NCBI GenBank assembly: GCA_030018355.1
Contig: JASEFN010000004.1
Location: forward strand, 62,001 to 126,000
Length of the DNA stretch: 64,000 bases
Direction of reading: 5' to 3'
Source: Caldisericia bacterium
GTDB lineage: Bacteria > Caldisericota > Caldisericia > B22-G15
Positions 43,889 to 60,379 of the stretch are shown one piece after another. The translations under genes were made by a program, and so were the position numbers. Each line of letters opens with the position of its first letter. Position 1 is the stretch's first letter. Below the pieces are notes generated by a model. It saw only the letters and a program-made list of their open reading frames with translations, was not told where the DNA came from and ran no database searches.

Positions 43889-44358
43889 TTTTTCTCTCCT
43901 TTCATAATTTCAATTAATTTCTTAGTTGCATCTATTTGTTGTACATAACCTGTACATCTACAGATATGACTGGAGAGAGCTATCTTTATATCTTCTTCTG
44001 TTGGATTTGAAACTTTATCTAATAAATTCTTTACAGAAATTATAATTCCAGGTATACAATAACCACATTGAATTGCACCCTCCTCAACAAAAATTTTCTG
44101 AATTATATTTGGATTATCATAATCTCCTATTCCCTTAACAGTTATAACATTTTTTCCATTTATTTTACCTGCAAGATAAGTACAAGAAGGCACTGGTTCT
44201 CCATCAATAAGAACTGTACAAGCACCACATTCTCCTGTTTTACAATTATTTCCTTTAACCTCAGTATGATGGTTTCTTCTTAAAAGTTCAAAAAGAGTCT
44301 CTCCAGGATAAGCATCAAAAGCAACGTCTTCACCATTAAGAATAAATTTCACTAACAT
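43885..44358 (-). CDS. Xanthine dehydrogenase-family iron-sulfur (small) subunit
   Basis: Electron-transfer subunit with two [2Fe-2S] clusters, 157 residues. Plant-type ferredoxin motif CKTGECGACTVLIDGEPVPSC (split as CKTGECGAC and a final Cys) and the helical domain with IQCGYCIPG and HICRCTGY. Passes electrons from molybdopterin to the FAD subunit. It overlaps both neighbours by a few bases, so the three subunits are translationally coupled. Confidence 0.96.
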   Translation of the reverse strand: MLVKFILNGEDVAFDAYPGETLFELLRRNHHTEVKGNNCKTGECGACTVLIDGEPVPSCTYLAGKINGKNVITVKGIGDYDNPNIIQKIFVEEGAIQCGYCIPGIIISVKNLLDKVSNPTEEDIKIALSSHICRCTGYVQQIDATKKLIEIMKGEKK

Positions 44359-45188
44359 ATTTCCTCCTTTATTTTTTCCAAATTTCTTTTTGTTAACACT
44401 TTTGAAAGATGCATTCTATACTCTTTTGATGCTCTTAAATCATCAAAAAGTGGAACATCTATAAACTCTTTTACATAATTAATATTTTCATCATCAAGTT
44501 TCTTATTTATTAAATATTCTTCTATTTTCTTAAGGTGAACAGGAAAATTTGGTCTACCACCTAATAAAATATTGGCTTCTTGAATAACTCCATCACTAAT
44601 TTTTAATAAAACACCTTCATTTAAAAGAGGTATATCTGCACTAGTTCTTGTAAATCTTATATAAGAAAAGAAATAATTTGAATTAAAATTTGGAAATTCA
44701 ATTTCAACAATAATAAATTTTTTATTTTCTTTTTTAAAATCAATAAACTCTTCAAGAGAAATTGTTTTATACGCTCCATAATAAATCTTAATTTTTGATT
44801 TCAATGTTATAAAAATAGTTAAAATATCAGACCATCCATATCCTCTTGCAATTGTTCCACCAACTGTCATTATGTTTCTTAAAATTGGAGTTGCTACTTT
44901 TGAAATTGAATTTATAAATGAACCTCTTAAAAAATTTTTAAGTTCTCCACATCTTTCAATTGATCCAATTGTTGTGGTTGCACCAATTTTTATTGATGAA
45001 TCCTCTATTTTAATATAATTAAGAGGTATTTTTTCTAAGAAAATGAGACATTCAATATCACTCCTATCTCTCCAAACAATGTCAAGTCCTCCTCCAACAA
45101 TTTCTCCTTTCAAGTCATATTTTTTAATTAATTCATAAGCCTCTTCTATACTTTCTGGATAAAACCATTCCCTTACATTTTTAAGCAT
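44352..45188 (-). CDS. Xanthine dehydrogenase-family FAD-binding (medium) subunit
   Basis: FAD subunit of the molybdenum hydroxylase, 278 residues. WFYPESIEEAYELIKKYD and IVGGGLDIVWRDRSD replace the usual FAD phosphate-binding glycine-rich strand; TTIGSIERC, ATPILRNIMTVGGTIARG and a C-terminal CO-dehydrogenase flavoprotein domain follow. GRPNFPVHLKKIEEYL lies in the last domain. The ATG at 45188 overlaps the end of the PfkB kinase gene by eight bases. Confidence 0.92.
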   Translation of the reverse strand: MLKNVREWFYPESIEEAYELIKKYDLKGEIVGGGLDIVWRDRSDIECLIFLEKIPLNYIKIEDSSIKIGATTTIGSIERCGELKNFLRGSFINSISKVATPILRNIMTVGGTIARGYGWSDILTIFITLKSKIKIYYGAYKTISLEEFIDFKKENKKFIIVEIEFPNFNSNYFFSYIRFTRTSADIPLLNEGVLLKISDGVIQEANILLGGRPNFPVHLKKIEEYLINKKLDDENINYVKEFIDVPLFDDLRASKEYRMHLSKVLTKRNLEKIKEEIC

Positions 45189-46122
45189 TATATCCTCCTC
45201 TCTTTAAATATTTATTTAATAAATCCTTTTTTGGAATATAAATTCCAATTTTTGTTGTTGAAAGGGATGCAACTAAATTCGAAAAGAAGAGAGACTTTTT
45301 AAAATCAAAACCATTTAAGTAAGAAAAAATAAAAGCTGCATTAAAAACATCACCTGCGCCTGTTGTATCTATGCTTCTTACTTTAAAAGAAGGTTCAAAA
45401 ATTTCACCATTTTTAAAAATTATCTTTGCACCTCTCTCTCCCATTTTTACAATAAATATCTTTCCTTCACTAATTGCTTTGTTAAAATTCTCTTTTTTTA
45501 TTATACTCAATTCATACTCATTTGTGAAAATAAAATGCGAGATATCAAAAATTTTAAAGGCATAATCTTTAAAATATTTTATATCCTTTCCAATTCTATA
45601 GTTTATATCAAAAAATATTTTTATTTTTTCTTTTGTTGAATTAAGAAAATTAAATGTCCTTTCATTTAAATTTTTTTCTGTTAATAATCCACCTGAAATA
45701 TAAATAACCGAAAATTTATCTAAATTAATTAAATCAATTTTATTAAAATCTGTATCAACATAACTTGCATTTTTTAAATTTGCAAATGATATTCTTTCGC
45801 CATTTTTATTTAAAACAATAACTATACTCGCTGTATTTTTATTTGAAAATGTTATTAAATCAGTCTTAACACTATTCTCTATTAAATAATCAAAAATAAT
45901 CTTTCCAAATAAATCTCTGCTTAAAGAAGATAAATAATAAGTTTTTATTCCAAGTTTACTTAATGCAACAGAAAAATTAACACCTGTTCCAGCAGGAACT
46001 ATTTTTAACTCTTTAACATGGGAGTTTTCATCATATTCAAATTTAAAACTTACCTTTTTAATTTTTATTCTTATATCTATACAATTATCTCCCAAAACAA
46101 GAACATTCTTTTCTTTTTCCAT
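45181..46122 (-). CDS. PfkB-family sugar/nucleoside kinase
   Basis: ATP-dependent kinase of the ribokinase superfamily, 313 residues from the ATG at 46122 (preceded by AGAGGAG; an open frame upstream is non-coding). N-terminal LVLGDNCIDIRIKIKKVSF, VPAGTGVNFSVALSKLGIKTYYL, and the catalytic C-terminal DTTGAGDVFNAAFIFSYLNG. Substrate is unclear: it is more diverged than the ribokinase at 48128. Its 3' end overlaps the XDH FAD subunit gene, so it is the first gene of the XDH operon, pointing to a nucleoside or ribose-related role. It diverges from the PASTA gene across a 37-bp gap. Confidence 0.88.
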   Translation of the reverse strand: MEKEKNVLVLGDNCIDIRIKIKKVSFKFEYDENSHVKELKIVPAGTGVNFSVALSKLGIKTYYLSSLSRDLFGKIIFDYLIENSVKTDLITFSNKNTASIVIVLNKNGERISFANLKNASYVDTDFNKIDLINLDKFSVIYISGGLLTEKNLNERTFNFLNSTKEKIKIFFDINYRIGKDIKYFKDYAFKIFDISHFIFTNEYELSIIKKENFNKAISEGKIFIVKMGERGAKIIFKNGEIFEPSFKVRSIDTTGAGDVFNAAFIFSYLNGFDFKKSLFFSNLVASLSTTKIGIYIPKKDLLNKYLKRGGYNA

Positions 46123-46159: not shown

Positions 46160-46840
46160 ATGAAAAAATTGATATTGATAATAATATCAATAGTTATAAC
46201 TCTTCCTCTTATTTCATGCGCAATTGGAAAAGAAGAACTCGTTTCTGTTCCATCTCTTGTTGGTCTTAAATTAAGAGACGCAGAAAAAATTGCTGAAGAA
46301 AAAGGATTACTTGTAAAAGTTGTTAAATCTGATTTTGCCAAAGATTATCCAATAGATTATATTATTTCCCAAGATCCTGGACCATATGTATTAGTTAAAA
46401 AGGGTAGAATTATAAATGTTGTCATAAGTAGTGGACCTCCAAAAGTTCTTGTTCCAGATTTTATTGGAATGAACTTCAAAGATGCTCAGGAATTGATTTA
46501 TCAAAATAAGTTACAACTTGGAAACATTGAAGAAATTTCTGTTCCAAATGTTGAGGTTGGAATCATTCTTGATCAATCACCTTCACCAAAAACATATGTT
46601 GAAGAAGGAACAAGAATTGATTTAAAAATTTCAAAAGGAACTTTATACCAAATACCTTCTTTAATTGGTTTATCAATTGAAGAAGCAAAGAGTGTAATTG
46701 TAACAAGTGGATTTAGTGTTGGAAAAATAATAAAAAAGAGTAATCCTGCATATCCATCAAATGTAATTTGGGATCAAGATCCCGCACCATTAACTTATGG
46801 TAGTAAAGATACAATTATTGATCTATATGTTAATCCATGA
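46160..46840 (+). CDS. PASTA-domain lipoprotein
   Basis: 226 residues: lipoprotein signal (hydrophobic 3-18, LISC) and three PASTA repeats: VPSLVGLKLRDAEKIAEEKG (about 31-98), VPDFIGMNFKDAQELIYQNK (about 99-165) and IPSLIGLSIEEAKSVIVTSG (about 166-225). PASTA domains bind muropeptides or beta-lactams; here there is no kinase or transpeptidase domain, so it is a surface lipoprotein with PASTA only. First gene of a unit with rpe and mazEF, joined to rpe by an ATGA overlap. Confidence 0.9.
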   Translation: MKKLILIIISIVITLPLISCAIGKEELVSVPSLVGLKLRDAEKIAEEKGLLVKVVKSDFAKDYPIDYIISQDPGPYVLVKKGRIINVVISSGPPKVLVPDFIGMNFKDAQELIYQNKLQLGNIEEISVPNVEVGIILDQSPSPKTYVEEGTRIDLKISKGTLYQIPSLIGLSIEEAKSVIVTSGFSVGKIIKKSNPAYPSNVIWDQDPAPLTYGSKDTIIDLYVNP

Positions 46841-47475
46841 AAATTGCTCCTTCTATTCTTGCAGCAAATTTTAAAAACCTTGAAGAAGAGATAAAATTAA
46901 TTGAAGAATTTGGAGATATTGTACATCTTGATATAATGGATGGACATTTTGTTCCAAACATATCTTTTGGTTTTCCAATTGTAAAAACAGTAAGAGAATT
47001 AACAAAATTACCTCTTGATGCTCATCTTATGATTGAAAAACCAGAAAATTATATTGATAAATTCATAGAATTTGGAGTAAATATGATTTCTGTTCATATA
47101 GAAAATAATTATCATATAAATAGAATAATAAATAATATTAAAAATAAAGGAGTTCTTGCAGGGGTTGCAATAAATCCAGGGACTTCAATCTTTTCTCTTG
47201 ATTCAATTTTAAAAGATATTGATTTTTTATTAATTATGACTGTTAATCCTGGATTTTCTGGACAAAAATTTATTGAAAGTTCTATTGAAAAAATTAAAAA
47301 AATTGTTAACATAAAAAATGAAATGGGCTTAAGTTTCCAAATAGAAGTTGATGGTGGATTAAATTATGAGATTGCTTTAAAATTAAAAGAGATAGGCGTT
47401 GATATTGTAGTTTTTGGAGATTATTTTTTTAAAAATAAAAAGGAAAATTTATATATTTTAAGGAATTTGATATGA
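46837..47475 (+). CDS. rpe: Ribulose-phosphate 3-epimerase
   Basis: Interconverts ribulose 5-phosphate and xylulose 5-phosphate. 212-residue TIM barrel: APSILAANFKNLEEEI, VHLDIMDGHFVPNISFG (metal and catalytic Asp), DAHLMIEKPENY, MTVNPGFSGQKFIES and EVDGGLN with the second catalytic Asp. Shares ATGA overlaps with both neighbours. With the transketolase at 37396 it supplies the non-oxidative pentose phosphate route for ribose released from nucleosides. Confidence 0.96.
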   Translation: MKIAPSILAANFKNLEEEIKLIEEFGDIVHLDIMDGHFVPNISFGFPIVKTVRELTKLPLDAHLMIEKPENYIDKFIEFGVNMISVHIENNYHINRIINNIKNKGVLAGVAINPGTSIFSLDSILKDIDFLLIMTVNPGFSGQKFIESSIEKIKKIVNIKNEMGLSFQIEVDGGLNYEIALKLKEIGVDIVVFGDYFFKNKKENLYILRNLI

Positions 47476-47738
47476 AAAACGAAAAATTAATTATTGATCT
47501 GCCAAAAGAGTTGGCAGATGCAATCGAAAAGAAAGCAAAAAGAGAGAAAAAGAAAAAAGAAGATCTTATAAAAGAATTAATAGCATTTTACCTTGCACTT
47601 GAAGATAGGAAAACAAGAATAAAAAAAGAAATGATAAAAGGATACAAAGAATCTTCTGAAACAAGTTTATTTTTTTCAAGAGAGTTTTTTGAGATAGAGC
47701 AAGAGTTATTTAGAGATATACTTAAACATATTAAATAA
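47472..47738 (+). CDS. mazE: Antitoxin of a MazEF-type module (ribbon-helix-helix)
   Basis: 88 residues: N-terminal ribbon-helix-helix segment (LIIDLPKELADAIEKKAKRE, EDLIKELIAFYLA), and a C-terminal tail (SLFFSREFFEIEQELFRDIL) of the sort that wraps around MazF. ATGA overlap with rpe and a one-base overlap with the toxin gene, the usual antitoxin-first order. Antitoxin identity rests on the partner. Confidence 0.82.
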   Translation: MKNEKLIIDLPKELADAIEKKAKREKKKKEDLIKELIAFYLALEDRKTRIKKEMIKGYKESSETSLFFSREFFEIEQELFRDILKHIK

Positions 47739-48097
47739 TGAAAAGAGAGCAAATAAGAAGAGGAGAGATCTATCTTGTTGATCTCTCATCTTCTACTGGC
47801 TCAGAACAAAGTGGTTTGAGACCAGTTTTAATAATTCAAAATGATATTGGAAATAAATATTCTCCAACGGTTATTGTAGCAGCAATTACATCTAAAGAAA
47901 TTGAAGAAGCATATCCAATTGTGATAAAAGTTAATGAAAAAGAAGGTGGACTAGATAAACCAAGTTATATTCTTTTAAATCAAATAAGAACAATTGATAA
48001 AAAAAGATTAAGAAAAAGATTGGGAAAACTAAAAAAAGAGACAATGGAGAAGGTTGATATTGCACTAAAAATTTCGTTAGGGTTGATAAAAATTTAA
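47738..48097 (+). CDS. mazF: MazF/PemK-family toxin, mRNA interferase
   Basis: 119 residues of the PemK/MazF fold: IRRGEIYLVDLSSSTGSEQSG, RPVLIIQNDIGNKYSPTVIVAAIT, and SYILLNQIRTIDKKRLRKRLG with the conserved catalytic Arg and Thr positions (R in LRPV, T in AAIT). Length is typical. It cleaves mRNA or tRNA at short motifs; the motif cannot be read from the sequence. It ends the PASTA-rpe-mazE-mazF unit. Confidence 0.94.
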   Translation: MKREQIRRGEIYLVDLSSSTGSEQSGLRPVLIIQNDIGNKYSPTVIVAAITSKEIEEAYPIVIKVNEKEGGLDKPSYILLNQIRTIDKKRLRKRLGKLKKETMEKVDIALKISLGLIKI

Positions 48098-48127: not shown

Positions 48128-49045
48128 ATGATTTATGTTTTTGGAAGTATTAATTTTGATTTGACTATTTTTGTAGATAGATTTCCTGAAATTGGAGAAA
48201 CAATAAAAGGTGATTCAATTTTTCTAACTTTAGGGGGAAAGGGTGCAAACCAAGCAATTTCAGTTAAAAAATTAAATGGAGATGTTTTATTTATTGGAAA
48301 ATTGGGCGATGACTATTTTGGAAAATATTTACTAAACACATTAAACTTTTTTGGATTAAAATATGAAATAAAAATTGAAAAAGGAGTAAATTCTGGAATC
48401 GCAATTATAAATGTTGATAAAAATGGAAAAAATAAAATTGTAATTTATGAAGGAGCAAATGGAAAGGTGGGAGATGATGAGTTAATTTTACTTAAAGATA
48501 AAATAAAAAAAGATGATATTTTACTTCTTCAAGGTGAAATTCCTATAAAAACAATACATATGAGTGCAAAAATTGCAAAAGAAAATGGAACAATAGTAAT
48601 TTTTGATCCTGCTCCTGCAAAGAAAGATTTTCTAGAAATAATTCCATATGTTGATTATTTAACTCCAAATGAGAGTGAGCTTGAGATTTTAACTGAAAAC
48701 ATTAACAATTTTGAAGATAAAATTGAATTTTTATTGAGCAAAGGGGTAAATTCAATAATTGCAAAACTTGGAGAAAGGGGTTGTTATTACAAAGATAAAA
48801 GTGGATTAGAATATAAAGTTCCTGCATATAAAGTCAATGCAATTGATACAACTGCAGCAGGAGATATTTTTAATGGTGCATTTGCAGTAGCAATTCAAAA
48901 AAATTGTGATATTTTTTACTCCTTAAAATTTGCAAATGCAGCAGCAGCAATTTCTGTTACAAGAAAAGGGGCAAGTGTATCTTGTCCTGAATATAATGAA
49001 GTAATTAAGTTTATGGAGGAGTATGATGAGAAAAGTAATAATTGA
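48128..49045 (+). CDS. rbsK: Ribokinase
   Basis: D-ribose to ribose 5-phosphate. 305 residues of the ribokinase branch of PfkB: YVFGSINFDLTIFVDRFPEIGETI, GGKGANQAISVKKLNG, GFDPAPAKKD-type FDPAPAKK, LTPNESELEIL and the C-terminal DTTAAGDIFNGAFAV with the catalytic Asp. It overlaps the start of the nucleoside hydrolase gene by 20-23 bases, so ribose released by that enzyme is probably its substrate. First gene of the nucleoside salvage operon. Confidence 0.93.
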   Translation: MIYVFGSINFDLTIFVDRFPEIGETIKGDSIFLTLGGKGANQAISVKKLNGDVLFIGKLGDDYFGKYLLNTLNFFGLKYEIKIEKGVNSGIAIINVDKNGKNKIVIYEGANGKVGDDELILLKDKIKKDDILLLQGEIPIKTIHMSAKIAKENGTIVIFDPAPAKKDFLEIIPYVDYLTPNESELEILTENINNFEDKIEFLLSKGVNSIIAKLGERGCYYKDKSGLEYKVPAYKVNAIDTTAAGDIFNGAFAVAIQKNCDIFYSLKFANAAAAISVTRKGASVSCPEYNEVIKFMEEYDEKSNN

Positions 49046-49943
49046 TACTGATGCTGGAATTGATGATGCTATAGCAATTATGATTGCTTTATCTTTTGAA
49101 GAAAATTTAGTGATAAAAGGAATCACAACTGTTTCTGGGAATACATATGTTGATCAAGTAACAAAAAATGTTTTAAGAATTCTTGACTATTTTGGAAGAG
49201 ACAATATTAAAGTTTATAAAGGAGCAAGCAAACCACTTTTGCACAAATTTGAAAGAGGTGCAAAAGTTCATGGAAATGATGGTCTTGGTGATATTGATCT
49301 TGAGTATTCTTTAAGAAAAGAGGAAGAAATTTCAGCACCTTATGCTATTTATAAAATTGCAAAAGAAGAAGGTAAAATTGATTTAATTACTCTAGGTCCA
49401 CTAACAAATCTTTCTATTGCATTAAATCTTTATCCAGATTTAAAAAATTATATAAATTGCATTTACTCAATGGGTGGTGCAATTGAAAGAGGAAATATAA
49501 CTCGCTTTGCTGAATTCAATTTCTATTTTGATCCAGAAGCAGTTCAAAGTGTAATTGAATCAAAAGTTAAGATGACAATTGTTCCATGGGATCCTATAAT
49601 TAAAAATGTCTTTTTCGAAGAAGAACTCAAAAGAGTTATTGATGAAAAAAGTTATGCTGGTAAATTATTTTTTCAATTAATAAATTATCCAATTTCTTAT
49701 TTTGAAAGACATATAGGCATAAGAGGTGTATCTCTTCCAGATCCAATTTCAATCTCTTGTTACATTGATGAGAGTGTTATTAAACAAAAAAGAAAAACAA
49801 ACCTCCAAATGGAACTTAATAATACTGCTTTAAGAGGGGCATCAATTCTTTTAGAAGGAGAAGATTTAGAAGTTGTTTTGGATTTTGACAGAGAAAAATT
49901 CTTAAAGATTTTGGGGAAGATTAATTCTTTAAAAAGGAGGTGA
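49023..49943 (+). CDS. Nucleoside hydrolase (inosine/uridine-preferring type)
   Basis: Hydrolyses N-glycosidic bonds of nucleosides to base plus ribose. 306 residues: IIDTDAGIDDAIAIM (calcium- and ribose-binding Asp cluster at 7-16), KVHGNDGLGDI, LITLGPLTNLSIAL, MGGAIERGNI and EFNFYFDPEAVQ. The ATG at 49023 (or the next at 49026) sits behind GGAGG within the rbsK 3' end. A second hydrolase in the operon at 54613 differs enough to suggest a different preference. Confidence 0.95.
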   Translation: MMRKVIIDTDAGIDDAIAIMIALSFEENLVIKGITTVSGNTYVDQVTKNVLRILDYFGRDNIKVYKGASKPLLHKFERGAKVHGNDGLGDIDLEYSLRKEEEISAPYAIYKIAKEEGKIDLITLGPLTNLSIALNLYPDLKNYINCIYSMGGAIERGNITRFAEFNFYFDPEAVQSVIESKVKMTIVPWDPIIKNVFFEEELKRVIDEKSYAGKLFFQLINYPISYFERHIGIRGVSLPDPISISCYIDESVIKQKRKTNLQMELNNTALRGASILLEGEDLEVVLDFDREKFLKILGKINSLKRR

Positions 49944-49993
49944 GAGACTTTAAAAAATTTATGTTTTTTAAAAACAATTTTTAGGAGGTAGTT

Positions 49994-51058
49994 ATGAAAA
50001 AATTAATAGCGATTATTTTAGTTAGTGCTTTAATTTTCAGTGTCATTACACTATCTGGTTGTAAGAAAAAAGAGGAAAAACCACCAGAGAAAAAATTAAA
50101 AGTTGTTCTTTACATTAACGGAACTCTTGGAGATAAATCATTCTTTGATTCTGCAAATAGAGGAATTGAGATGGCAATTAAAGAACTTGGAATTGAAGGT
50201 AAAACAATTGAGGGTGGATATGATCCAGCAAGATGGGAACCAGATATTGAACAACTTTGTCAGGGTGATTGGGATATAATAATTGCTGGAACTTGGCAAC
50301 TTCAAGAGATTCTTGAAAAATTGGCACCAAAATATCCAAATAAAAGATTTTTCACTTATGATACATCAGTTGATTATTCAAAAGGAAATCTTGGTAATGT
50401 TTATTCAATACTTTATAAACAAAATGAAGCATCATTTTTAGTTGGTGCTCTTGCTGCTCTTATTACAACATCAAATATGCCACTTGCAAATCCTCAAAAA
50501 ATAATTGGATTTTTAGGTGGAATGGATATTCCAGTTATAAATGATTTTAAAGTTGGATACATTCAAGGCGCAAAATATATTGATCCTGAAATCCAAGTTC
50601 TTGTTTCATATGCTGGTTCATTTTCAGATCCAGCAAAAGGAAAGGAGTTAGTGCTTGCACAATACAATCAAGGTGCAGATATTGCATTTAATGTTGCAGG
50701 TGAAACTGGTTTAGGTCTTCTTGATGCTGCAAAAGAGATGAAAAAATACGCTATTGGCGTTGATTCAGATCAATATCTTATGATTAAAGATAGTGATCCA
50801 GAGAAAGCATCATATATTGTAACTTCAATGATGAAAAATGTTGATTTATCAATTTATAGAGGAATAAAATTACACCTTGAAGGAAAATGTCCATATGGTC
50901 AAGCAGAAGCACTTGGTCTTAAAGAAGGTGGAGTTGGTGTTGCTGATAATGAAAATTATAGAAAACTTGTTCCAGAAGAGTTTAGAAATAAAATAAAAGA
51001 ACTTGAACAGAAAATAATTAAAGGTGAAATCGTTGTAGATACAGCATTTGGAAAGTAA
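49994..51058 (+). CDS. BMP-family nucleoside/purine-binding lipoprotein
   Basis: Binding protein of the second importer, 354 residues: lipoprotein signal (hydrophobic 4-20, LSGC), linker KKKEEKPPEKK, BMP domain with VVLYINGTLGDKSFFDSANRG, EVNP-like IIGFLGGMDIPVINDFKVGY and GADIAFNVAGETGLG, the last a signature of the PnrA/Med class. AGGAGG site. Divergent in sequence from the BMP protein at 16835. Nucleoside hydrolases on both sides make nucleosides the expected ligand. Confidence 0.93.
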   Translation: MKKLIAIILVSALIFSVITLSGCKKKEEKPPEKKLKVVLYINGTLGDKSFFDSANRGIEMAIKELGIEGKTIEGGYDPARWEPDIEQLCQGDWDIIIAGTWQLQEILEKLAPKYPNKRFFTYDTSVDYSKGNLGNVYSILYKQNEASFLVGALAALITTSNMPLANPQKIIGFLGGMDIPVINDFKVGYIQGAKYIDPEIQVLVSYAGSFSDPAKGKELVLAQYNQGADIAFNVAGETGLGLLDAAKEMKKYAIGVDSDQYLMIKDSDPEKASYIVTSMMKNVDLSIYRGIKLHLEGKCPYGQAEALGLKEGGVGVADNENYRKLVPEEFRNKIKELEQKIIKGEIVVDTAFGK

Positions 51059-51064
51059 AAAATT

Positions 51065-51105
51065 AAATTTAAGGGGAGGCAAATATGCCTCCCCTTCTTA
51101 AATTT
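51065..51105 (+). terminator. Strong hairpin between bmp and the ABC ATPase gene
   Basis: AAATTTAA-GGGGAGGC-AAATAT-GCCTCCCC-TTCTT-AAATTT: eight G+C-rich pairs with flanking AAATTT/AAATTT pairs and a short T-rich 3' side. Placed like the hairpin at 16781 in the other importer cluster; the intergenic space is 56 bases. Confidence 0.75.
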
Positions 51106-51114
51106 GGAGGTTAA

Positions 51115-52632
51115 ATGGCAACAATTCTTTCAGTTAGAAATATAGTAAAGGTTTATCCAAATGGAGTTGTTGCAAATAAAGGAGTTTCACTTGATATAGA
51201 AGAAGGAACAATTCATGCAATAGTTGGTGAAAATGGCGCTGGAAAAACAACTTTAATGAAAATAATTTTTGGAATTGAGGAGCCACAAGAAGGTAAAATT
51301 TTATACAAAGGTAAAGAGATCAAAATAAAAAATCCATATGATGCAATTAAAATTGGTATTGGAATGGTTCATCAACATTTTATGTTAGCACCTGACCTTA
51401 CTGTTTATGAAAATTTACTTTTAGGAATAGAACCAAGAAAAGGATTGTTTCTTGATTCCAAAAAGGCAATCGAAACAACCAAAAAAGCATCAGAAGAATT
51501 TGGTCTGCCTGTTCCTTTTGATAAAAAAATAAAAGATCTTCCAATTGGTTTAAGACAAAGAGTTGAAATTTTAAAGGCTCTAATAAGAAATGCAGAACTT
51601 CTGATTTTAGATGAACCAACATCAGTTTTAACTCCCCAAGAGACAGAAGTTTTATTTGCAACTTTAAGAAACTTAAAAAAATCAGGAAAAACAATTATTT
51701 TCATATCTCATAAATTAAAAGAAGTTTTAGAAATTGCAGATAAAATTACAGTTATGAGAGATGGTAAAATAGTTGCTACAAAAGATGCAAAAGATATGAC
51801 TGAACATGAAATTGCTTATCTTATGGTTGGGAGAGAAATCTCTTTTGAAAGAATTCCTCCATGCGAAAAAGAAGGTGAGGTAATTTTTGAAGTAAAAGAT
51901 ATAACTTATATAAATGAAGAAAATATAAAAGTTTTAAATGGTATTTCATTTCAGTTAAAAACTCATGAAATTTTAGGTCTTGCTGGAATTGAAGGAAATG
52001 GTCAAACAGAACTTGTTGAGATTTTAACAGGGTTAAGAAGACCAACTTCTGGTAAAATTTTTCATAAAGGTAAAGATATAACAAATTTAATTCCAAGGAA
52101 AATTAGAGAAAGCGGAATCTCTCATATTCCTGAAGATAGAATGAGAGATGGAGTTGCAGATAAAGCAACAATTGAAGAAAATGTTATTGTTGATAGATAT
52201 TATAAAAATCTCTTTTCTGGAAGAGTTTTATTAAAAGAAAAGGAGATTGAAAATTATACAAATGAACTTATAAAAAAATTCAATATAGTAACTATTTCAT
52301 CAAAAAATCCTGTTAATTCTTTATCTGGTGGAAACATACAAAAAGTTGTTGTTGCAAGAGAACTTTCTTCAAATCCAACAGTTATAATTGCAGATCAACC
52401 AACCAGAGGAATTGATGTTGGTTCAGAAGAGTTAGTGCATAATCTTCTTAAAGAGGCAAGGGATAATGGTGCTGCAATTTTTCTTGTATCTGCAGATTTA
52501 GATGAAATACTTAAACTTTCAACAAGAATTTTAGTAATTTACAATGGTGAAATTGTAAAAGAATTCAAAAATTATGAAGGATTAACTGGTAAAGATCTTG
52601 GTCCATATATGCTTGGTATAAAAAGGGAGTAA
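51115..52632 (+). CDS. ABC transporter ATP-binding protein with two nucleotide-binding domains (nucleoside importer)
   Basis: YufO/RbsA-type double ATPase, 505 residues. Domain 1: GENGAGKTTLMK (about 38-49), GLRQRVEILKAL as a weak signature, LLILDEPTSVLTPQE. Domain 2: LAGIEGNGQTELVEIL with a degenerate Walker A, LSGGNIQKVVVAREL, DQPTRGID. Shine-Dalgarno GGAGG before the ATG lies in the 3' arm of the preceding hairpin's flank. Confidence 0.95.
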   Translation: MATILSVRNIVKVYPNGVVANKGVSLDIEEGTIHAIVGENGAGKTTLMKIIFGIEEPQEGKILYKGKEIKIKNPYDAIKIGIGMVHQHFMLAPDLTVYENLLLGIEPRKGLFLDSKKAIETTKKASEEFGLPVPFDKKIKDLPIGLRQRVEILKALIRNAELLILDEPTSVLTPQETEVLFATLRNLKKSGKTIIFISHKLKEVLEIADKITVMRDGKIVATKDAKDMTEHEIAYLMVGREISFERIPPCEKEGEVIFEVKDITYINEENIKVLNGISFQLKTHEILGLAGIEGNGQTELVEILTGLRRPTSGKIFHKGKDITNLIPRKIRESGISHIPEDRMRDGVADKATIEENVIVDRYYKNLFSGRVLLKEKEIENYTNELIKKFNIVTISSKNPVNSLSGGNIQKVVVARELSSNPTVIIADQPTRGIDVGSEELVHNLLKEARDNGAAIFLVSADLDEILKLSTRILVIYNGEIVKEFKNYEGLTGKDLGPYMLGIKRE

Positions 52633-52635
52633 AGC

Positions 52636-53712
52636 ATGGAGAGATTTATTCTTAAGTATTTTAATCTTATAAGAACAATAATTGCATTTTTGATTGGAGC
52701 ATTTATCTGTGTTTTAATAATATTTATTTATAGCAAAGACCCATCAAACGGTTTAAGATATTTCTTTTTAGGTCCTTTTAGTTCAATTGGTAGATTAGGA
52801 AATGTTATTGAGATGGCATCACCCATAATCTTATGCGGACTTGCAATTGCAATTCCATTTCAAGCAGAACAATTTAATATAGGTGCAGAAGGTGCTCTCT
52901 TTATTTCTGCAGCAGTTGCAACTGGTTTTGGTGTCTCAACAAATTTTCCCAAATTTATACATATTCCTTTAATGCTTTTAGTTGCAGGAGGAGTTGGTGC
53001 TTTTTGGGGTTTTATTCCTGGAATTCTTAAAGCAAAATGGAAAGCAAGTGAACTTGTTATAACTCTTATGATGAATTATGTTGCTCTTTATCTCAGTTTA
53101 TATATAATAAATTTTCATTTTAGAGATAAAAAGGCTGGATTTCTTGTTTCATATCAACTTCCAAAAACTGCATGGTTTGATCAATTTATAAAAAATACAA
53201 GAATTCATTATGGAGTTTTATTAACAATAGTTTTTATAATTCTTGTTTATATACTTTTATATAAAACAAAACTTGGTTATGAAATTAGAATGACTGGTTT
53301 TAACATAAATTTTGCAAAATATGGAGGAATTAATACATTTAAGATAATTTTAATAACTCAAATTATTGGTGGTTTTATTGCTGGAATTGCTGGAATAAGT
53401 GAAGTTATGGGAATTCATAGAAGATTTAACTGGCAAGGAACACCAGGATATGGTTGGGATGGAGTTGTCGTTGCAATTATTGGAAGAAATCATCCTATAT
53501 TAATTGCATTTGCGTCAATTTTTATTGCATATTTAAGGGTGAGTGGTCAAGTTTTAAATTTACTTACTGATATTCCAGCAGAAATAGTTACTGTTCTTGA
53601 ATCTATAATTATTCTTCTTATAACAGCAGAAGCATTTTTAACTCAATGGAAGTATAGAATAACAGTAAGAGAGGCAGAAAAGAGGGAGGTAAAAATTGAG
53701 TCCGCTTCTTAA
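52636..53712 (+). CDS. ABC transporter permease, nucleoside importer (first permease)
   Basis: 358 residues, about eight to nine helices, YufP/NupP-like: FLGPFSSIGRLGNVIEMASPI, FQAEQFNIGAEGALFISAAVA and EIRMTGFNINFAKYGGINTFK with IGGFIAGIAGISEVMG. Starts four bases after the ATPase stop with an AAAGGGAG site. Overlaps the second permease by 17 bases. Confidence 0.93.
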   Translation: MERFILKYFNLIRTIIAFLIGAFICVLIIFIYSKDPSNGLRYFFLGPFSSIGRLGNVIEMASPIILCGLAIAIPFQAEQFNIGAEGALFISAAVATGFGVSTNFPKFIHIPLMLLVAGGVGAFWGFIPGILKAKWKASELVITLMMNYVALYLSLYIINFHFRDKKAGFLVSYQLPKTAWFDQFIKNTRIHYGVLLTIVFIILVYILLYKTKLGYEIRMTGFNINFAKYGGINTFKIILITQIIGGFIAGIAGISEVMGIHRRFNWQGTPGYGWDGVVVAIIGRNHPILIAFASIFIAYLRVSGQVLNLLTDIPAEIVTVLESIIILLITAEAFLTQWKYRITVREAEKREVKIESAS

Positions 53713-54613
53713 AAGTATATTAAGTCCATCATTTGGTTTTGCAATTTTAAGAGTTATGACTCCAATTCTATTTGCAGCAATTGGTGTTGCAATAACTGCC
53801 CTTTCTGGTGCAATTAATATTTCAATGGAAGGAACAATGCTTATTGCCGCATTCTTTGGAGTAATTGTAAGTGCTTTTACTCAAAATCTTCTCCTTTCAT
53901 TTATAGCAGGTGTTCTTGCTGGAATTGGCCTTGCATGTATTCTTGCATATTTTCACCTTAAACTAAAAGCAGACATTATTCTTGCTGCAATTGCTTTAAA
54001 TATGTTTTCTTCTGGTATTACTATATTTCTTCTTTATATTTTTGCAAAAGATAAAGGAACTTCAAGTTCACTTAAAAGTTTAGTTTTTCCATCTATCCAA
54101 ATTCCCATAATAAAAGATATTCCAATATTAGGACAAATTTTTAGTGGTCATAATATTCTTACATATCTTGCTTTGATCTCAGTTATAATCTTTTACATTA
54201 TAACTTTTAAAACTCCTCTTGGATTAAGAATTAGAGCAGTTGGACAAAATCCTGATGCTGCAAGTTCAGTTGGTGTTAATGTAAATAAAATTAGGTTTTA
54301 TGCACTTGTTTTATCTGGAATCTTTGGAGCACTTGGAGGTCTCTATCTTTCAATGGGATATGTTAGTTGGTTTGCGAGAGATATGACTGCTGGAAGAGGT
54401 TTTATTGCAATAGCAGCATCAAATTTAGGAGCCCATTTACCTTTTGGTGTTTTTCTTGCTTCTCTTCTTTTTGGTATTTTAAACACAATTGCAATTTATC
54501 TTGCATCTCTTCAAATTCCATCTGAATTTATTCAAATGATTCCTTATATTGCAACAGTAATTACATTAACGATATATTCAATTCAGGCAGCAAGAAAAAG
54601 AAAGGAGAGATAA
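53696..54613 (+). CDS. ABC transporter permease, nucleoside importer (second permease)
   Basis: 305 residues, YufQ/NupQ-like: TALSGAINISMEGTMLIAAFFG near the N-terminus and LRIRAVGQNPDAASSVGVNVNKIR before LSGIFGALGGLYLSMGYV. Start is TTG at 53696, six bases after GGGAGGT; no ATG is better placed. Ends with a one-base overlap with the next hydrolase (TAATG). Confidence 0.93.
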   Translation: MSPLLKSILSPSFGFAILRVMTPILFAAIGVAITALSGAINISMEGTMLIAAFFGVIVSAFTQNLLLSFIAGVLAGIGLACILAYFHLKLKADIILAAIALNMFSSGITIFLLYIFAKDKGTSSSLKSLVFPSIQIPIIKDIPILGQIFSGHNILTYLALISVIIFYIITFKTPLGLRIRAVGQNPDAASSVGVNVNKIRFYALVLSGIFGALGGLYLSMGYVSWFARDMTAGRGFIAIAASNLGAHLPFGVFLASLLFGILNTIAIYLASLQIPSEFIQMIPYIATVITLTIYSIQAARKRKER

Positions 54614-55548
54614 TGAAAAAAATAATTCTTGATTGCGATCCAGGACATGATGACATGATAGCAATTATGCTTGCTTCATCAAGAAAAGAAATTGAAATTA
54701 TTGGTATAACAACAGTTGCAGGAAATCAAACTGGAGATAAAACTTTTCAAAATGCTTTAAAAACATTAACATTAATTAACAGAAAAGATATAAAAGTTGC
54801 AAAAGGTTTTGATAAACCAATTTTAAGAGAACTTATAACTGCACCAAAAATTCATGGCATTTCAGGTCTTGATGGAGCAAATTTACCAGAACCTGAAATA
54901 GAACCTCTTAAAATTCATGCAGTTGATTTTATAATTGATACTCTTTTAAATTCAAATGAAAAAATTTATATTGTTCCAACCGGACCTTTAACAAATATTG
55001 CGATTTCCTTAATAAAAGAGCCAAAAATAAAAGAAAAAATTGAAAAAATAGTTTTAATGGGAGGTGCAATTTTTGATTCAAACATAACTCCTGCAGCAGA
55101 ATTTAATATTTATGTTGATCCAGAAGCTGCAAAAATTGTTTTTAATTCAGGTATTCCGATAGTTATGGTTGGTCTTGATGTAACAAACAAAGCACTATTA
55201 ACTTTTGATGATATAGAGAAAATAGAGAAAATGAATGGAAAAATTTCAAGTGTTGTTGGTCCGCTTTTAAGATTTTTCGCAAATGCAAATAAAGAGTTTT
55301 TTGGATTTAATGGTGCTCCAATTCATGATGCATTAACAATTTCTTATCTTATAGATGAGACAACTCTTACACTAAAAGAGTATTTTGTCGATATTGAAAT
55401 TCAAGGAGAATTAACAAGAGGAAGAACTATAGTTGATGTATATGGAGTTTTAAAGAGAAAACCAAATGCATTTGTTGCAATAGATTTAGATTTAATTAAG
55501 TTTAAAAATATGATTTTTGAGATGATTGAGTTTTTAGATAAAAGTTAA
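54613..55548 (+). CDS. Nucleoside hydrolase (second copy)
   Basis: 311 residues: ILDCDPGHDDMIAIM (Asp cluster), TTVAGNQTGDKTFQNAL, KIHGISGLDGANLPEP, YIVPTGPLTNIAISL, MGGAIFDSN, AAEFNIYVDPEAAKIV and GAPIHDALTISYLI with the His-Asp pair. Closer to the classical IunH/RihA type than the one at 49023. Start overlaps the permease stop. Confidence 0.95.
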   Translation: MKKIILDCDPGHDDMIAIMLASSRKEIEIIGITTVAGNQTGDKTFQNALKTLTLINRKDIKVAKGFDKPILRELITAPKIHGISGLDGANLPEPEIEPLKIHAVDFIIDTLLNSNEKIYIVPTGPLTNIAISLIKEPKIKEKIEKIVLMGGAIFDSNITPAAEFNIYVDPEAAKIVFNSGIPIVMVGLDVTNKALLTFDDIEKIEKMNGKISSVVGPLLRFFANANKEFFGFNGAPIHDALTISYLIDETTLTLKEYFVDIEIQGELTRGRTIVDVYGVLKRKPNAFVAIDLDLIKFKNMIFEMIEFLDKS

Positions 55549-55563
55549 AATTTGGAGGAATAA

Positions 55564-56856
55564 ATGTTAATTAAAAATACAACAATAATAGATTTTAAAG
55601 ATTTAAAAATAGAAAAAAATAAAGATATTTTAATTGATGGAAATAAAATTAAAAAAATTGGTGAAAATTTAGAAGGAGATGAAATTATTGATGGAAGTAA
55701 CTTTTATACTCTGCCTGGTCTTGTAAATTGTCATTCACATGTTGCAATGACTTTAATAAGAGGATCTGCAGAGGATGTAAATTCAACAGATTGGTTTAAT
55801 AAATACATTTGGATTTATGAAAAAAATTTAAGACCCCATTTTGTGTATTTTGGAACTCTTCTTGGTGCTGCAGAAATGCTTTTATCAGGAGTAACAACTG
55901 TTTTTGATCATTACTTTTATATGGATGAAGCGTATAAAGCATATGAAGAGGCTGGAATTAGAGCAGACCTTGCATGGGCTCTTTTTGGTGTTGGAGAAAA
56001 TGAAGAAGAAAATTTTAAAAAGGCAATGGATTTCATTGAAAAATATAATGGGTTATCAGATAGATTAACAATTTCTCTTGGGCCACATTCTCCATATGTT
56101 TGCCCAGAAGATTTTTTAAAAAAGTTTTCAATGCTTTCTAAAGTTTATGAATTAAAAATTCATATTCATGCATCAGAAATGGAGTGGCAAGTTGAAAAAA
56201 GTATAAAAGAAAAGGGAAAAACGCCAATAAAACATCTTTATGATATTGGTCTTATTAAGGAAAATACTCTCATTGCACATGCATATAGGGCAAGAGATGA
56301 AGATTTAAAAATTATAAAAGACACGAATGCATTTATAGCACATGCACCTAAAACATTTATGAAATTTGGAGATCTTTCAGACATTTTATTTAGAATTCTA
56401 AAAGAGAAAGTAAGATGTGGTTTTGCAACCGATGGGGTTGTTTCTAATAACACTCTTTCTATTTTTGAAGCAGGAAGGTTAGCAGCACTAAATGCTAAAA
56501 TTTCAAAATCTAATCCAGAAATCGCAAGAATAGAAGAATTAATGCCACTTTTCTCTTCAGGTGGCTCTCTTTTAACTCATTTAAAAATTGGAGAAATAAA
56601 AGAAGATTATGTTGCAGATTTAATTCTTATTAACAAAAATTCTCCCTCATTAAATCCAGAAATAAACATTTTTGCAAATCTTCTCTATTCAATATCTGAG
56701 AGAGACATTGATACTGTAATAGTTGATGGTAAAGTTGTTGTTAAAAATGGAAAATTATTAACAATTGATATTCCATACTTAATCAAAGAAATAAATAAAA
56801 TAAAAGATATTATGCTTATTAGAAGTGATAAACCTATGCAAAAATTTGGAGAGTGA
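55564..56856 (+). CDS. Amidohydrolase-family deaminase (MTA/SAH deaminase, ATZ/TRZ type)
   Basis: Zinc-dependent deaminase of a purine nucleoside or base. 430 residues: NCHSHVAMTLIRGSAED (HxH metal site, about 57-73), a central GPHSPYVCPEDF, HIHASEMEWQVEKS, IAHAYRARDED, FIAHAPKTFMKFGD and the Asp in GFATDGVVSNNTLSIFEAGR. Closest to 5'-methylthioadenosine/S-adenosylhomocysteine deaminases; guanine deaminase is a weaker alternative. Strong TGGAGGA site. In this operon adenosine-like or guanine-like deamination would feed the hydrolases and the XDH-family enzyme. Confidence 0.88.
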   Translation: MLIKNTTIIDFKDLKIEKNKDILIDGNKIKKIGENLEGDEIIDGSNFYTLPGLVNCHSHVAMTLIRGSAEDVNSTDWFNKYIWIYEKNLRPHFVYFGTLLGAAEMLLSGVTTVFDHYFYMDEAYKAYEEAGIRADLAWALFGVGENEEENFKKAMDFIEKYNGLSDRLTISLGPHSPYVCPEDFLKKFSMLSKVYELKIHIHASEMEWQVEKSIKEKGKTPIKHLYDIGLIKENTLIAHAYRARDEDLKIIKDTNAFIAHAPKTFMKFGDLSDILFRILKEKVRCGFATDGVVSNNTLSIFEAGRLAALNAKISKSNPEIARIEELMPLFSSGGSLLTHLKIGEIKEDYVADLILINKNSPSLNPEINIFANLLYSISERDIDTVIVDGKVVVKNGKLLTIDIPYLIKEINKIKDIMLIRSDKPMQKFGE

Positions 56857-56861
56857 ATTTT

Positions 56862-57593
56862 ATGAGTGAAGCACATATTAAATGTGAAAAAGAAGATATA
56901 TCAGAAAAAATTATTCTAGTCGGAAATCCAGATAGAGCAAAAAGAATAAATTTTGAATTTTTTAGTAATGGAAAACTTGTTAATGAATATAGATCACTTT
57001 TAGTTTATACTGGATTTTATAAAGATGATAGAATAACAGTTGCAACAACTGGAATGGGTTCTCCATCTGCTGCAATTGTTCTTGAAGAATTAATTAAACT
57101 TGGAGGAAAAATTTTTATTAGAGTTGGAAGTGCTGGTGGATTAAATCCAAAGATTCAAACTGGAGATATTGTTATTGCAACAAGTTCAATTAGAGATGAT
57201 GGAACTTCAATTAAATATTTACCTCTTGGATTTCCAGCAGTTCCAGATTTTGATTTAACATCAATTTTAATTAAAAAGGCGAAAGAGAATTTTGATAGAA
57301 TTTTTTATGGAATAGTACTCTCATCAGATGGTTTTTATGAAGGTTATGATAAAGAGATAATAAAAAAATATGTTGAATCAAATGTTCAAGCAGTTGAAAT
57401 GGAAAGTGGAGTTGTCTTTATTGTTTCACAAAGGAGAAGAGTTAAGGCTGGCGCAATTTTTGTTATTGATGGAAATATTACTCTTGGTAAGATGAAAGAG
57501 AAGGGCAAAGAAAAAGAATTTAGTATGGGTGAATATATTGCGTCAAAAATTGCACTCGAAACACTTTCAGAATATAAAGTTATTTGGAAATAA
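56862..57593 (+). CDS. Nucleoside phosphorylase (PNP/uridine phosphorylase family)
   Basis: Phosphorolysis of nucleosides to base plus (deoxy)ribose 1-phosphate. 243 residues from the ATG at 56862: VGNPDRAKRI (phosphate site), TTGMGSPSAAIVLEELIKLGG, FIRVGSAGGLNPKIQTGDIVIATSS, and VQAVEMESGVVFIVSQ with the ribose-binding Glu-Met-Glu. The frame opens nine bases earlier at a GTG, but the ATG follows GGAG at better spacing. The 3' 47 bases of the gene recur, degraded, beyond the copper ATPase island at 60546. Confidence 0.9.
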   Translation: MSEAHIKCEKEDISEKIILVGNPDRAKRINFEFFSNGKLVNEYRSLLVYTGFYKDDRITVATTGMGSPSAAIVLEELIKLGGKIFIRVGSAGGLNPKIQTGDIVIATSSIRDDGTSIKYLPLGFPAVPDFDLTSILIKKAKENFDRIFYGIVLSSDGFYEGYDKEIIKKYVESNVQAVEMESGVVFIVSQRRRVKAGAIFVIDGNITLGKMKEKGKEKEFSMGEYIASKIALETLSEYKVIWK

Positions 57594-58134: not shown

Positions 58135-58308
58135 ATGTTATTACAAAATCAAGATATAAATTTGATCACAATTTGTTCAAATATGAATTTAATCACTATT
58201 TATAAACCAAAATGTCTTCAATCTTTTGCTTTTTTACAAAATAAATATAAGTTTGTCAAAAAATTACTACAATTTAAAGGAGGAATCAATGAACCAATCT
58301 CAAAATAA
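58135..58308 (+). CDS. Possible 57-codon leader ORF overlapping the copper ATPase start
   Basis: A frame behind an excellent Shine-Dalgarno site (AAAAAGGAGGTAATAA then ATG) encodes [20 protein letters not shown]... with two Cys residues, ending ISK at 58308, 20 bases inside the ATPase gene in another frame. No homology recognised. Its translation could affect access to the ATPase start. The strong ribosome site is the main argument that it is translated. Confidence 0.45.
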
Positions 58309-60379
58309 ACATAAAAATCACCACAATATGCATATGACTCATAAATACATACACTCCAAAACAGATACCCCAAAAAATCATTCAATAAGACATACAGATC
58401 ACACAGGACACGAGCAGATGTTCCGTAAACGTTTCTGGATATGTTTAGTTCTTAGTGTACCAGTTGTAATTTTCAGTCCTATACCCCAACGCTTATTAGG
58501 CTTTAAAATACCAACCTTCCCATGGAGTGAGTGGATTCCTTTCTTATTTTCACTTGTCATTTTCAGTTATGGTGGTATACCTTTCCTTCAAATGTCCATA
58601 CCTGAATTACGACATCGCAGACCAGGTATGATGACACTGATTTCTTTAGCAATCTCCATTGCTTTTGTTTATAGTATTCTGGCACAAATTACCAATCTTG
58701 GAGAGGGATTCTTTTGGGAACTAGTTACATTAATTGATGTAATGCTTCTTGGTCACTGGCTTGAAATGCGTTCTGTACGTCAAGCCTCTGGTGCTTTAAA
58801 CGAACTTGCTAAATTAATGCCAGATACTGCTGAACGTATTTTACCAGATGGAAGTGTTGAAATTGTTTCTACTTCTGCTTTACACATCGGAGATCTTGTA
58901 TTGGTACGCCCAGGCACAAGCATACCTGCTGATGGCGAAGTAGTTGATGGTGAGTCAAATGTTAATGAAGCGATGATCACTGGGGAATCTCGTCCTGTTA
59001 GTAAATTACCTGGATCAAAAGTTATTGCTGGAACAATTAATGGAGATGGTAGTTTGCGTATTCGCGTTACCGCTATTGGTGATCAAACTGCACTAGCAGG
59101 TATTATGCGTCTTGTAAAACAAGCGCAAATGTCTAAGTCTCCAACTCAAGTGCTCGCTGATCGTGCAGCAGGTTGGCTATTTTACATTGCCTTGATTGTA
59201 GCTGCTATTACTGCCATTGGATGGACCATAACTGTTGGTTTCAATGTTGAAGTTCTTATGCGTGTTGTTACAGTATTGGTTATTGCTTGTCCACACGCAC
59301 TTGGTTTGGCTGTTCCATTGGTTGTTGCTATAACAACAGCACTTGGAGCTAAAAATGGAATTTTAGTTCGTGATCGATTGGCATTAGAAACCGCTCGTGA
59401 TATAGATATAGTAGTTTTTGACAAAACTGGAACTCTAACCGAAGGTAAATTTGGTGTGGTAGGCATTGCAGTAAATAAGGGCTGGAATGAAAATGATGCA
59501 TTAGCCCTTGCTGCAGCTATTGAAGGTGACTCGGAACATCTTATTGCCCAAGCAATACGGAAGGCAGCACAAGATCGTGGACTTACATTACCTTCTGTTA
59601 GTGAGTTCACTGCCTTGAAAGGGCGTGGTGTACGAGCCTTTTTCAATAATAAATCTGTTTATGTGGGTGGTCCACGCATGTTAGAAATGTTAGATTTACA
59701 TCCGCCAGACTATTTTAAAACTTTTATCCAAACTGCAGGGGAGAAAGCGCAATCAGTAGTTTATTTAATTGTTGATAAACAAGTAGTTGCTGCATTCGCT
59801 GTAGCAGATGTTATACGCCCTGAAAGCAAAGAAGCTGTTCGTCGATTACATGAAATGGGTATTGAGGTTGCAATGTTAACAGGTGATAGTCAAGAAGTAG
59901 CACAGGCTGTTGCTGCTGAATTGGGTATTGATTATGTCTTTGCTCAAGTTCTCCCAGAACATAAAGTTCAGATAGTGGCTGATTTACAAACTAAAGGAAA
60001 ACGTGTTGCTGTAGTTGGCGATGGAGTAAATGATGCACCAGCCCTAACCAAAGCGGATGTTGGAATTGCAATTGGCAGTGGTACAGATGTTGCAATCGAA
60101 TCTGCTGGAGTAATTCTGGTTAAAAGTAATCCATTAGATGTGGTTAAGGTAATTGCTCTAAGTCGAGCTAGTTACCATAAGATGATCCAAAATCTATGGT
60201 GGGCTGCTGGCTACAACATTATTGCTCTACCACTTGCAGCAGGTGTTCTCGCTCGTTGGGGTATTTTGTTTTCTCCAGCCATTGGAGCACTCTTTATGTC
60301 ACTTAGCACAATTATTGTTGCCATAAATGCTCAATTGTTACGTAGTGAGCGTCTATCAATACTAACACCCACTAAGTGA
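58289..60379 (+). CDS. copB: Copper-translocating P-type ATPase, CopB-like (CPH motif)
   Basis: Exports copper (or silver). 696 residues. N-terminus is His-rich ([28 protein letters not shown], residues ~8-45) in place of CxxC domains; eight helices; actuator motif [14 protein letters not shown] in helix 6, the CPH signature of the CopB (P1B-3) group; phosphorylation site [20 protein letters not shown] and [11 protein letters not shown]. The start at 58289 follows AAAGGAGG. Codon use is unlike the neighbours: CGT, CGC and CGG arginines instead of AGA, and higher G+C. With the flanking direct repeats this argues for lateral acquisition. Confidence 0.95.

Follow-up and report, generated by a model that had tools for sequence, protein, structure and literature searches.

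Two kinds of described system come closest to the genes considered here. An operon of Corynebacterium glutamicum combines a ribokinase with a uridine transporter and a uridine hydrolase that together yield base plus ribose 5-phosphate (PMC3146418), and TmpC/PnrA of Treponema pallidum and BmpA and BmpD of Borrelia burgdorferi belong to nucleoside importers of the ATP-binding cassette (ABC) type; B. burgdorferi is reported to be without de novo purine and pyrimidine synthesis and dependent on salvage (PMC13325309). Here we describe a nine-gene operon in a 64,000-nucleotide stretch of DNA (the window; contig JASEFN010000004.1, positions 62,001 to 126,000) from a Caldisericia bacterium whose assembly (GCA_030018355.1; 1.41 Mb in 14 contigs) has a completeness rated at 100%. 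The operon encodes, in order, a ribokinase (rbsK), a nucleoside hydrolase (NH1), the binding protein, ATPase and two permeases of an importer, a second nucleoside hydrolase (NH2), a deaminase and a phosphorylase (Table 1). It leads to base and ribose 5-phosphate as in C. glutamicum, but its importer is of the BMP/PnrA ABC type and is flanked by two hydrolases of different classes, with the deaminase and phosphorylase added. Its binding protein is of the same family as those of T. pallidum and B. burgdorferi, but here the cleavage enzymes and ribokinase share the importer's operon, a feature that we state for the present operon alone. We confirm the operon and its conservation, and it belongs to a known kind (importer, hydrolase and ribokinase); its variant features are the two hydrolases of different catalytic classes on either side of a PnrA-type importer and its occurrence in lineages without marker genes of de novo base synthesis. 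We consider it probable that it is an import-and-cleavage unit that supplies base and ribose to a member of the Caldisericota that has none of these marker genes. No publication on any Caldisericota nucleoside operon was found among the matches listed in the open-licence literature.

From gene families, gene order and conservation, the presence or absence of the genes listed below and active-site residues, we infer substrates, regulation and direction of flux as follows. The importer would bring nucleosides into the cell, where NH2 would hydrolyse pyrimidine ribonucleosides and NH1, most likely, purine ribonucleosides, and the deaminase would convert adenosine-type to inosine-type substrates. 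Free bases would pass to Apt, Hpt and Upp, and ribose would be converted by RbsK to ribose 5-phosphate, which could go to phosphoribosyl pyrophosphate (PRPP) through Prs or enter the pentose phosphate pathway through Rpe. The phosphorylase would form a side branch to (deoxy)ribose 1-phosphate, to be completed by DeoB and DeoC, which are encoded outside the operon.

All nine genes lie on the + strand at 48128-57593, and the run of ribokinase, two different hydrolases, importer, deaminase and phosphorylase claimed in an earlier note on this DNA was found gene for gene as placed there. Since genes overlap at four junctions (rbsK and NH1 by 23 bp, 49023-49045; the two permease genes; the second permease and NH2 by the single base 54613; deaminase and phosphorylase by 4 bp, 56853-56856) and the other junctions have gaps of at most 56 bp, the arrangement indicates one transcription unit. 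The transcript may start further upstream, because rpe and a toxin-antitoxin pair lead in on the same strand with a gap of 30 bp between the toxin gene and rbsK. An Rfam scan gave nothing above gathering scores except two tRNAs, and no riboswitch, and a promoter scan gave no signal (70 consensus matches, 70.3 expected). The Pfam matches of all nine genes are far above cut-off. The ribokinase passes the TIGR02152 equivalog (309.4 versus a cut-off of 299.65 bits) and fails the other ribokinase model, NF008353 (263 versus 341 bits). NH1 and NH2 are the two IU_nuc_hydro matches of the whole genome.

The operon is conserved in relatives. NH1 orthologues (E < 1e-80) are present in 12 of 101 genomes searched, the source genome (G000) counted in, and all 12, hereafter the carriers, belong to one class. 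A BMP gene follows NH1 in every carrier, rbsK precedes it in all 11 that have upstream sequence, and the order rbsK-NH1-importer-NH2 recurs in related genomes, which speaks against chance assembly. NH2 is present in ten carriers, after the second permease gene or, in G026 and G048, after the deaminase gene; in G003 and G046 it lies on another contig, whose start falls within a permease gene. The contig of G001 ends before NH2, and in G002 NH2 is missing from an intact junction. The locus of G018 has no deaminase gene. The phosphorylase gene follows that of the deaminase in all four family-f1 genomes whose contig reaches there (G000, G002, G003, G004) and was not found in four f3 loci (G006, G018, G026, G048) with at least 1.6 kb visible past the last operon gene. 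Because the operon phosphorylase is found in f1 only, and genes of its family (purine nucleoside phosphorylase/uridine phosphorylase, PNP/UP) lie elsewhere in those four f3 genomes, the phosphorylase is a family-specific addition and its pairing with the hydrolases is not an old, tight design.

Similar loci occur outside the class, and some within it are interrupted. Eight loci in metagenome-assembled genomes of Spirochaetota (L059, L067-L070, L073, L075, L077) have the order NH1-BMP-ATPase-permease-permease-NH2, with a deaminase gene after NH2 in six; in L055, L060 and L066, also Spirochaetota, the deaminase and NH2 genes are on the opposite strand. Three f3 genomes carry an extra gene between NH2 and the deaminase, which in locus L044 (14430-15830) is of the ADP-ribosylglycohydrolase family (137 bits), with similar open reading frames in L041 and L043, and its product is possibly a third ribose-releasing enzyme. 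At the same point the G004 operon is split by four genes (L039:14334-16091) for a roadblock/LC7 protein, a protoglobin-like protein, a small GTPase and a short protein that resembles roadblock below threshold. One genome otherwise without NH1 holds a fragment matching NH1 residues 66-148 (L025; G022:C42:24481-24729), perhaps a remnant or a contig artefact.

The importer has the full BMP/PnrA-type make-up of a BMP binding protein, a double-ABC ATPase and two BPD_transp_2 permeases, and the best PDB match of the binding lipoprotein is TmpC (2FQW, E 8.7e-40). Some BMP-type systems are named putative B6 transporters in NCBIfam, and against that family this importer scores 57 bits versus a cut-off of 400; it is predicted to take up nucleosides. 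A hairpin after the binding-protein gene is a usual means of keeping the binding protein in excess. In all 19 intergenic stretches chosen as a subset of the loci with a complete BMP-ATPase junction, the gap between the two genes forms a stem with 8 or more consecutive pairs (z of -1.9 to -7.2 relative to mononucleotide shuffles); the stretch of L055, where the next gene is on the opposite strand, was also folded. The hairpin probably trims transcripts or lifts the binding protein over the permeases.

NH2 resembles E. coli RihA, its best PDB match (3G5I, E 1.8e-91), over nearly its full length, and its three best PDB matches are all named or titled pyrimidine hydrolases; it falls below the cut-off of the RihA equivalog NF007761 (380 versus 433 bits). 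It has the group I His-Asp pair that RihA shares, with the His in 10 of 10 Caldisericota NH2 sequences, and is thus a group I enzyme. We predict from these relatives that NH2 serves pyrimidine ribonucleosides.

NH1 is of another type. The metal- and ribose-binding residues D10, D14, D15, N40, T128, N158, E164, N166 and D240 are retained, and all nine are intact in 12 of 12 NH1 and 10 of 10 NH2 sequences of Caldisericota (seven loci that duplicate G-labelled genome sequences were left out of this comparison). Where the group I His (His241 type) stands, directly before the last metal-binding Asp, NH1 has P239, and Pro occupies this site in all 12 Caldisericota NH1 sequences, which places them outside group I. 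Positions 83 (the loop His), 189 and 239 were no part of the search patterns used to retrieve loci. In a set of 84 sequences of NH1 type, drawn from Caldisericota, Spirochaetota, Chloroflexota and a small number of other groups, these positions read His-Trp-Pro in 71 and His-Trp-Ala in 13. Second copies in L116 and L118, nearer NH1 than NH2 by score, were left out of this set; they have Trp at position 83 and Leu at 189, and with both included the signature holds in 84 of 86. The co-occurrence of Trp with Pro or Ala may reflect one event, since the NH1 set is one clade. His-Leu-His stands at these positions in E. coli RihA, RihB and RihC and in 22 of the 26 sequences of NH2 type.

In a quick tree, from which three fragments shorter than 240 aa were omitted, NH1 forms a clade apart from RihA, RihB and RihC, and it shares a clade (SH-aLRT 93) with the Sulfolobus solfataricus inosine-adenosine-guanosine (IAG-NH, 3T8I) and cytidine-uridine (CU-NH, 3T8J) hydrolases. 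With Pro or Ala at the site, loop His and Trp kept and this shared clade, NH1 is a 'proline' hydrolase. NH1 has in common with both S. solfataricus enzymes the loop His, the Trp and the Pro that precedes the final metal-binding Asp; it differs from them in being bacterial and in having Leu rather than His just before that Pro, and its identity to them is 31-32%. It keeps the usual DxDxxxDD fingerprint and lacks the Glu found in CU-NH. NH1's best PDB sequence match is 3T8I, and three of its top five have purine-type entry titles (3T8I, 6BA1 and 8DB6, called purine-specific, purine-preferring or adenosine/guanosine hydrolases there), while 3T8J is pyrimidine-specific and 8QND was given no substrate assignment. 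In an alignment read by eye, His, Trp and Ala also occupy the corresponding sites of 8DB6, the adenosine/guanosine hydrolase of Trichomonas. A structural model of NH1 (pLDDT 93.3) has an ordinary nucleoside hydrolase fold that matches 3T8I with Z 43.4 and a root-mean-square deviation of 1.6 over 298 residues, and this comparison does not single out 3T8I among hydrolases, Z being 42.0-43.9 for the first 13 entries. Trp189 alone was considered as a purine-specificity residue and dropped, because the purine- and pyrimidine-specific S. solfataricus isozymes both have it. We predict, from complementarity to NH2 and from its relatives, that NH1 most likely serves purine ribonucleosides, and such a purine/pyrimidine division between the two hydrolases fits the relatives of each.

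NH1 might instead act on a different riboside (nicotinamide riboside, for example, or a modified nucleoside of tRNA), as its clade apart from the Rih enzymes, its missing catalytic His and its greater divergence could suggest (between genera and families of the class, NH1 copies are 48-57% identical and NH2 copies 66-72%). We regard this as unlikely, since the neighbouring ribokinase is equally diverged (47-52%), so that fast change is not peculiar to NH1, every metal- and ribose-binding residue checked is kept, and the closest relatives of known structure hydrolyse purine or pyrimidine nucleosides. Gene neighbourhoods also argue for nucleosides: in 80 named loci (the 80 best of 244), NH1 has a BMP gene no more than 3 kb away in 7 of 7 from Caldisericota and in 38 of the 73 others (19 on the same strand, 19 divergent); the BMP gene is farther away in 2 and was not found in 33, 12 of which have a flank below 2 kb. 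Linkage to an importer could be a trivial trait of nucleoside hydrolases in general; in a very small control of this, tblastn found no BMP gene in seven loci with other hydrolase matches from distant genomes (L048-L054).

A wider proposal, which we offer tentatively and which may well not hold, is that NH1 represents a widespread fourth catalytic class in Bacteria and Archaea, defined by loop His, Trp and Pro or Ala before the last metal-binding Asp. Its members would often be tied to a PnrA-type importer, either the loop His or the invariant Trp would stand in for the usual general-acid His, and in these operons they would provide the purine enzyme complementing the RihA-like pyrimidine enzyme. 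The S. solfataricus hydrolases are treated in a review as 'non-standard' exceptions without a His241 homologue, the loop His being suggested as proton donor for IAG-NH (PMC8910321); if the proposal is true, these exceptions would be two members of the NH1 class. A 2023 review calls 'proline' hydrolases unstudied, says that no explanation can be given for how they activate the leaving base and guesses at a group II-like mechanism (PMC10526354). Hydrolases of the NH1 type from Chloroflexota or Spirochaetota were the subject of no publication among the matches listed in the open-licence literature, with the S. solfataricus structure paper not looked up.

The deaminase, which we take to be of the COG0402 type, matches the methylthioadenosine (MTA)/S-adenosylhomocysteine (SAH) deaminase 4F0R and TM0936 in the PDB and appears to belong with the MTA/SAH/adenosine deaminases; given the nucleoside-type importer, conversion of adenosine to inosine would be its likelier job. 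The phosphorylase has the MTA phosphorylase 1JDS as best PDB match and falls below the cut-off of every NCBIfam family that it matches (uridine phosphorylase, 169.5 versus 280.3 bits; DeoD PNP, 154 versus 230 bits). An attempt at a purine- or uridine-type assignment from alignments gave no decision, both the catalytic-Asp region of PNPs and the uridine-binding residues of uridine phosphorylases being ambiguous, and we regard the enzyme as an extra PNP/UP family member whose substrate is not assignable from sequence. A paralogue on contig 3 is uridine-phosphorylase-like (278.9 versus a cut-off of 280.3 bits). On contig 7 another phosphorylase gene adjoins that of MtnA (427.8 versus 279 bits); its product passes the methylthioinosine phosphorylase cut-off (226.4 versus 223 bits) and just misses that of MTA phosphorylase (266.8 versus 274.85 bits). 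Deaminase and phosphorylase could instead form a branch recycling MTA and SAH rather than one of nucleoside salvage, as the names of their PDB matches would suit, with an MTA deaminase feeding the phosphorylase beside MtnA. We think this improbable, as both genes stand behind a nucleoside-type importer and a separate phosphorylase gene on contig 4 passes MTA phosphorylase cut-offs (300.8 versus 274.85 and 342.9 versus 306 bits), so that MTA need not depend on the operon. Hydrolases and phosphorylase may possibly divide their substrates by sugar (ribo- versus deoxyribonucleosides); the genome has both deoB and deoC.

Marker genes for making bases de novo are largely missing from the carriers. 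In 49 genomes of the class (12 carriers, 37 non-carriers), purF is over cut-off in 15, all of them non-carriers (0 of 12 versus 15 of 37, with G015, which has a distant hydrolase match, and G022, which has the NH1 fragment, counted as non-carriers). The source genome has one weak purF match (E 7.3e-25). Like most similar weak matches of the class, it falls in a reading frame some 600 aa long and, where the extent is listed, covers the first 200-230 positions, the pattern expected for GlmS. The source genome has no purC match, and one of the 12 carriers does (G001, on a 4,071-bp contig). The pyrB cut-off of 237 bits is reached by no carrier, and the top-scoring candidates there (168-183 bits; 109 in G047) resemble ArgF. 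For pyrF there is no match in the source genome, none in the 12 carriers and 2 in 19 genomes (G007, G008); all 14 control genomes gave a match. In the source genome Apt, Hpt and Upp are over their cut-offs, a 314-aa phosphoribosyltransferase is Prs-like by family match and length, and DeoB (430 versus 341 bits, contig 3) and DeoC are encoded. Because the de novo marker genes are missing while Apt, Hpt and Upp are present, import and cleavage are probably a required supply of bases, with ribose recovered as ribose 5-phosphate. The hydrolase route could furnish both halves for remaking nucleotides, the base and, through RbsK and Prs, the PRPP, and is compatible with use for energy.

Carbon and energy could nonetheless be the main purpose, the ribose of external nucleosides being fermented and the bases excreted or degraded; ribokinase and Rpe are encoded on the same strand, deoB and deoC are present and xanthine dehydrogenase (XDH)-family genes lie nearby. 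We judge this somewhat unlikely, since the bases are probably needed where de novo marker genes are missing, the transketolase of the window is only a remote relative, and the XDH-family enzyme has no assigned substrate. The growth on nucleosides suggested in the earlier note is supported as far as uptake and breakdown to pentose phosphate go, but base supply is probably the first use, with purC and pyrF unmatched, purF and pyrB below cut-off and Apt, Hpt and Upp present. Its 'complete' pathway is borne out for the hydrolase arm, which reaches ribose 5-phosphate within the operon, but not for the phosphorylase arm, which needs the phosphopentomutase of contig 3.

Several points weigh against a base-supplying import-and-cleavage unit with divided hydrolases. 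The pair is dispensable, as the single hydrolase match of G002 is NH1. NH1's second-ranking PDB match, the S. solfataricus hydrolase specific for pyrimidines, shares its residues at positions 83, 189 and 239. The genome has 6 BMP genes in all, and the five outside the operon could serve in nucleoside import; the phosphorylase beside MtnA would suit an MTA-deaminase role of the operon's deaminase. Salvage does not require the operon, since 22 genomes of the class have neither purF nor NH1. The contrast between purF and NH1 tracks families: its Fisher p of 0.0095 ignores kinship, and none of the f1 and f3 genomes searched has purF over cut-off, operon or not, so that it is confounded with descent. 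G005 and G035 have pyrB without a pyrF match, which makes the absence of a single gene an imperfect marker, and auxotrophy is argued from absence in draft assemblies.

Table 1. Positions of the operon genes and of other features in the 64,000-nucleotide window
Feature	Position	Strand	Function or family match
Ribokinase RbsK, 305 aa	48128..49045	+	ribose to ribose 5-phosphate; TIGR02152, PfkB 206 bits
Nucleoside hydrolase NH1, 306 aa, 'proline' type	49023..49943	+	PF01156 261 bits
BMP/PnrA-type substrate-binding lipoprotein, 354 aa	49994..51058	+	PF02608 207 bits
Intercistronic hairpin between binding-protein and ATPase genes	51071..51096	+	11 pairs; by folding
ABC importer ATPase, 505 aa, two ABC domains	51115..52632	+	ABC_tran 190 bits, two stretches
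Importer permease 1	52636..53712	+	BPD_transp_2 135 bits
Importer permease 2	53696..54613	+	BPD_transp_2 132 bits; listed reading frame starts TTG, start uncertain
Nucleoside hydrolase NH2, 311 aa, RihA-like	54613..55548	+	PF01156 338 bits
Putative nucleoside deaminase, amidohydrolase superfamily, adenosine/SAH/MTA deaminase type, 430 aa	55564..56856	+	Amidohydro_1 154 bits
Nucleoside phosphorylase, PNP/UP family, 246 aa	56853..57593	+	PNP_UDP_1 137 bits
Ribulose-phosphate 3-epimerase Rpe	46837..47475	+	PF00834 231 bits
Antitoxin/toxin pair	47472-48097	+	ribbon-helix-helix / PemK-MazF-like
Three XDH-family subunit genes	41525-45188	-	opposite strand to operon
XDH-family genes with PfkB-family kinase	41525-46116	-	kinase: no equivalog cut-off reached
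Transketolase-like protein, 770 aa	37396-39708	+	108.8 versus cut-off 682 bits
Second BMP-type importer and adjoining genes	7902-17932	-	
P-type (E1-E2) cation ATPase	58226-60379	+	

Of the companions that the earlier note had placed in the same window, Rpe and three XDH-family genes are real, and its 'transketolase' is a distant relative, 94% identical in G003 and possibly another thiamine-diphosphate enzyme. The order rpe, mazEF-like pair, operon is that of family f1, with the same neighbours in G001, G002 and G003; the pair is kept in G001-G004, and in G004 rbsK begins 1.4 kb after mazF. The XDH-family and PfkB-family genes are kept beside the operon in G001, G002 and G003. The P-type ATPase gene has a GC content of 0.40 (measured from 58289) versus 0.28 for the window, was not found behind the operon in the stretches of G002 and G003 examined, and was perhaps recently acquired. 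The genes that follow the second BMP-type importer encode FdrA, a member of the AllG family, an amidohydrolase of isochorismatase type close to biuret hydrolase (279.9 versus a cut-off of 370 bits) and a cytosine/purine permease; the whole may be a cluster for ureides or carbamoyl transfer.

The NH1 class is the part of the operon that merits specialist attention. Its many bacterial members share a fixed residue signature and have a well-defined genetic context, so that the question of how the leaving base is activated becomes testable, and NH1 relatives from Caldisericum exile, a thermophile, may give stable protein. For the Caldisericota lineages without genes of de novo synthesis, nucleosides are the probable source of bases.

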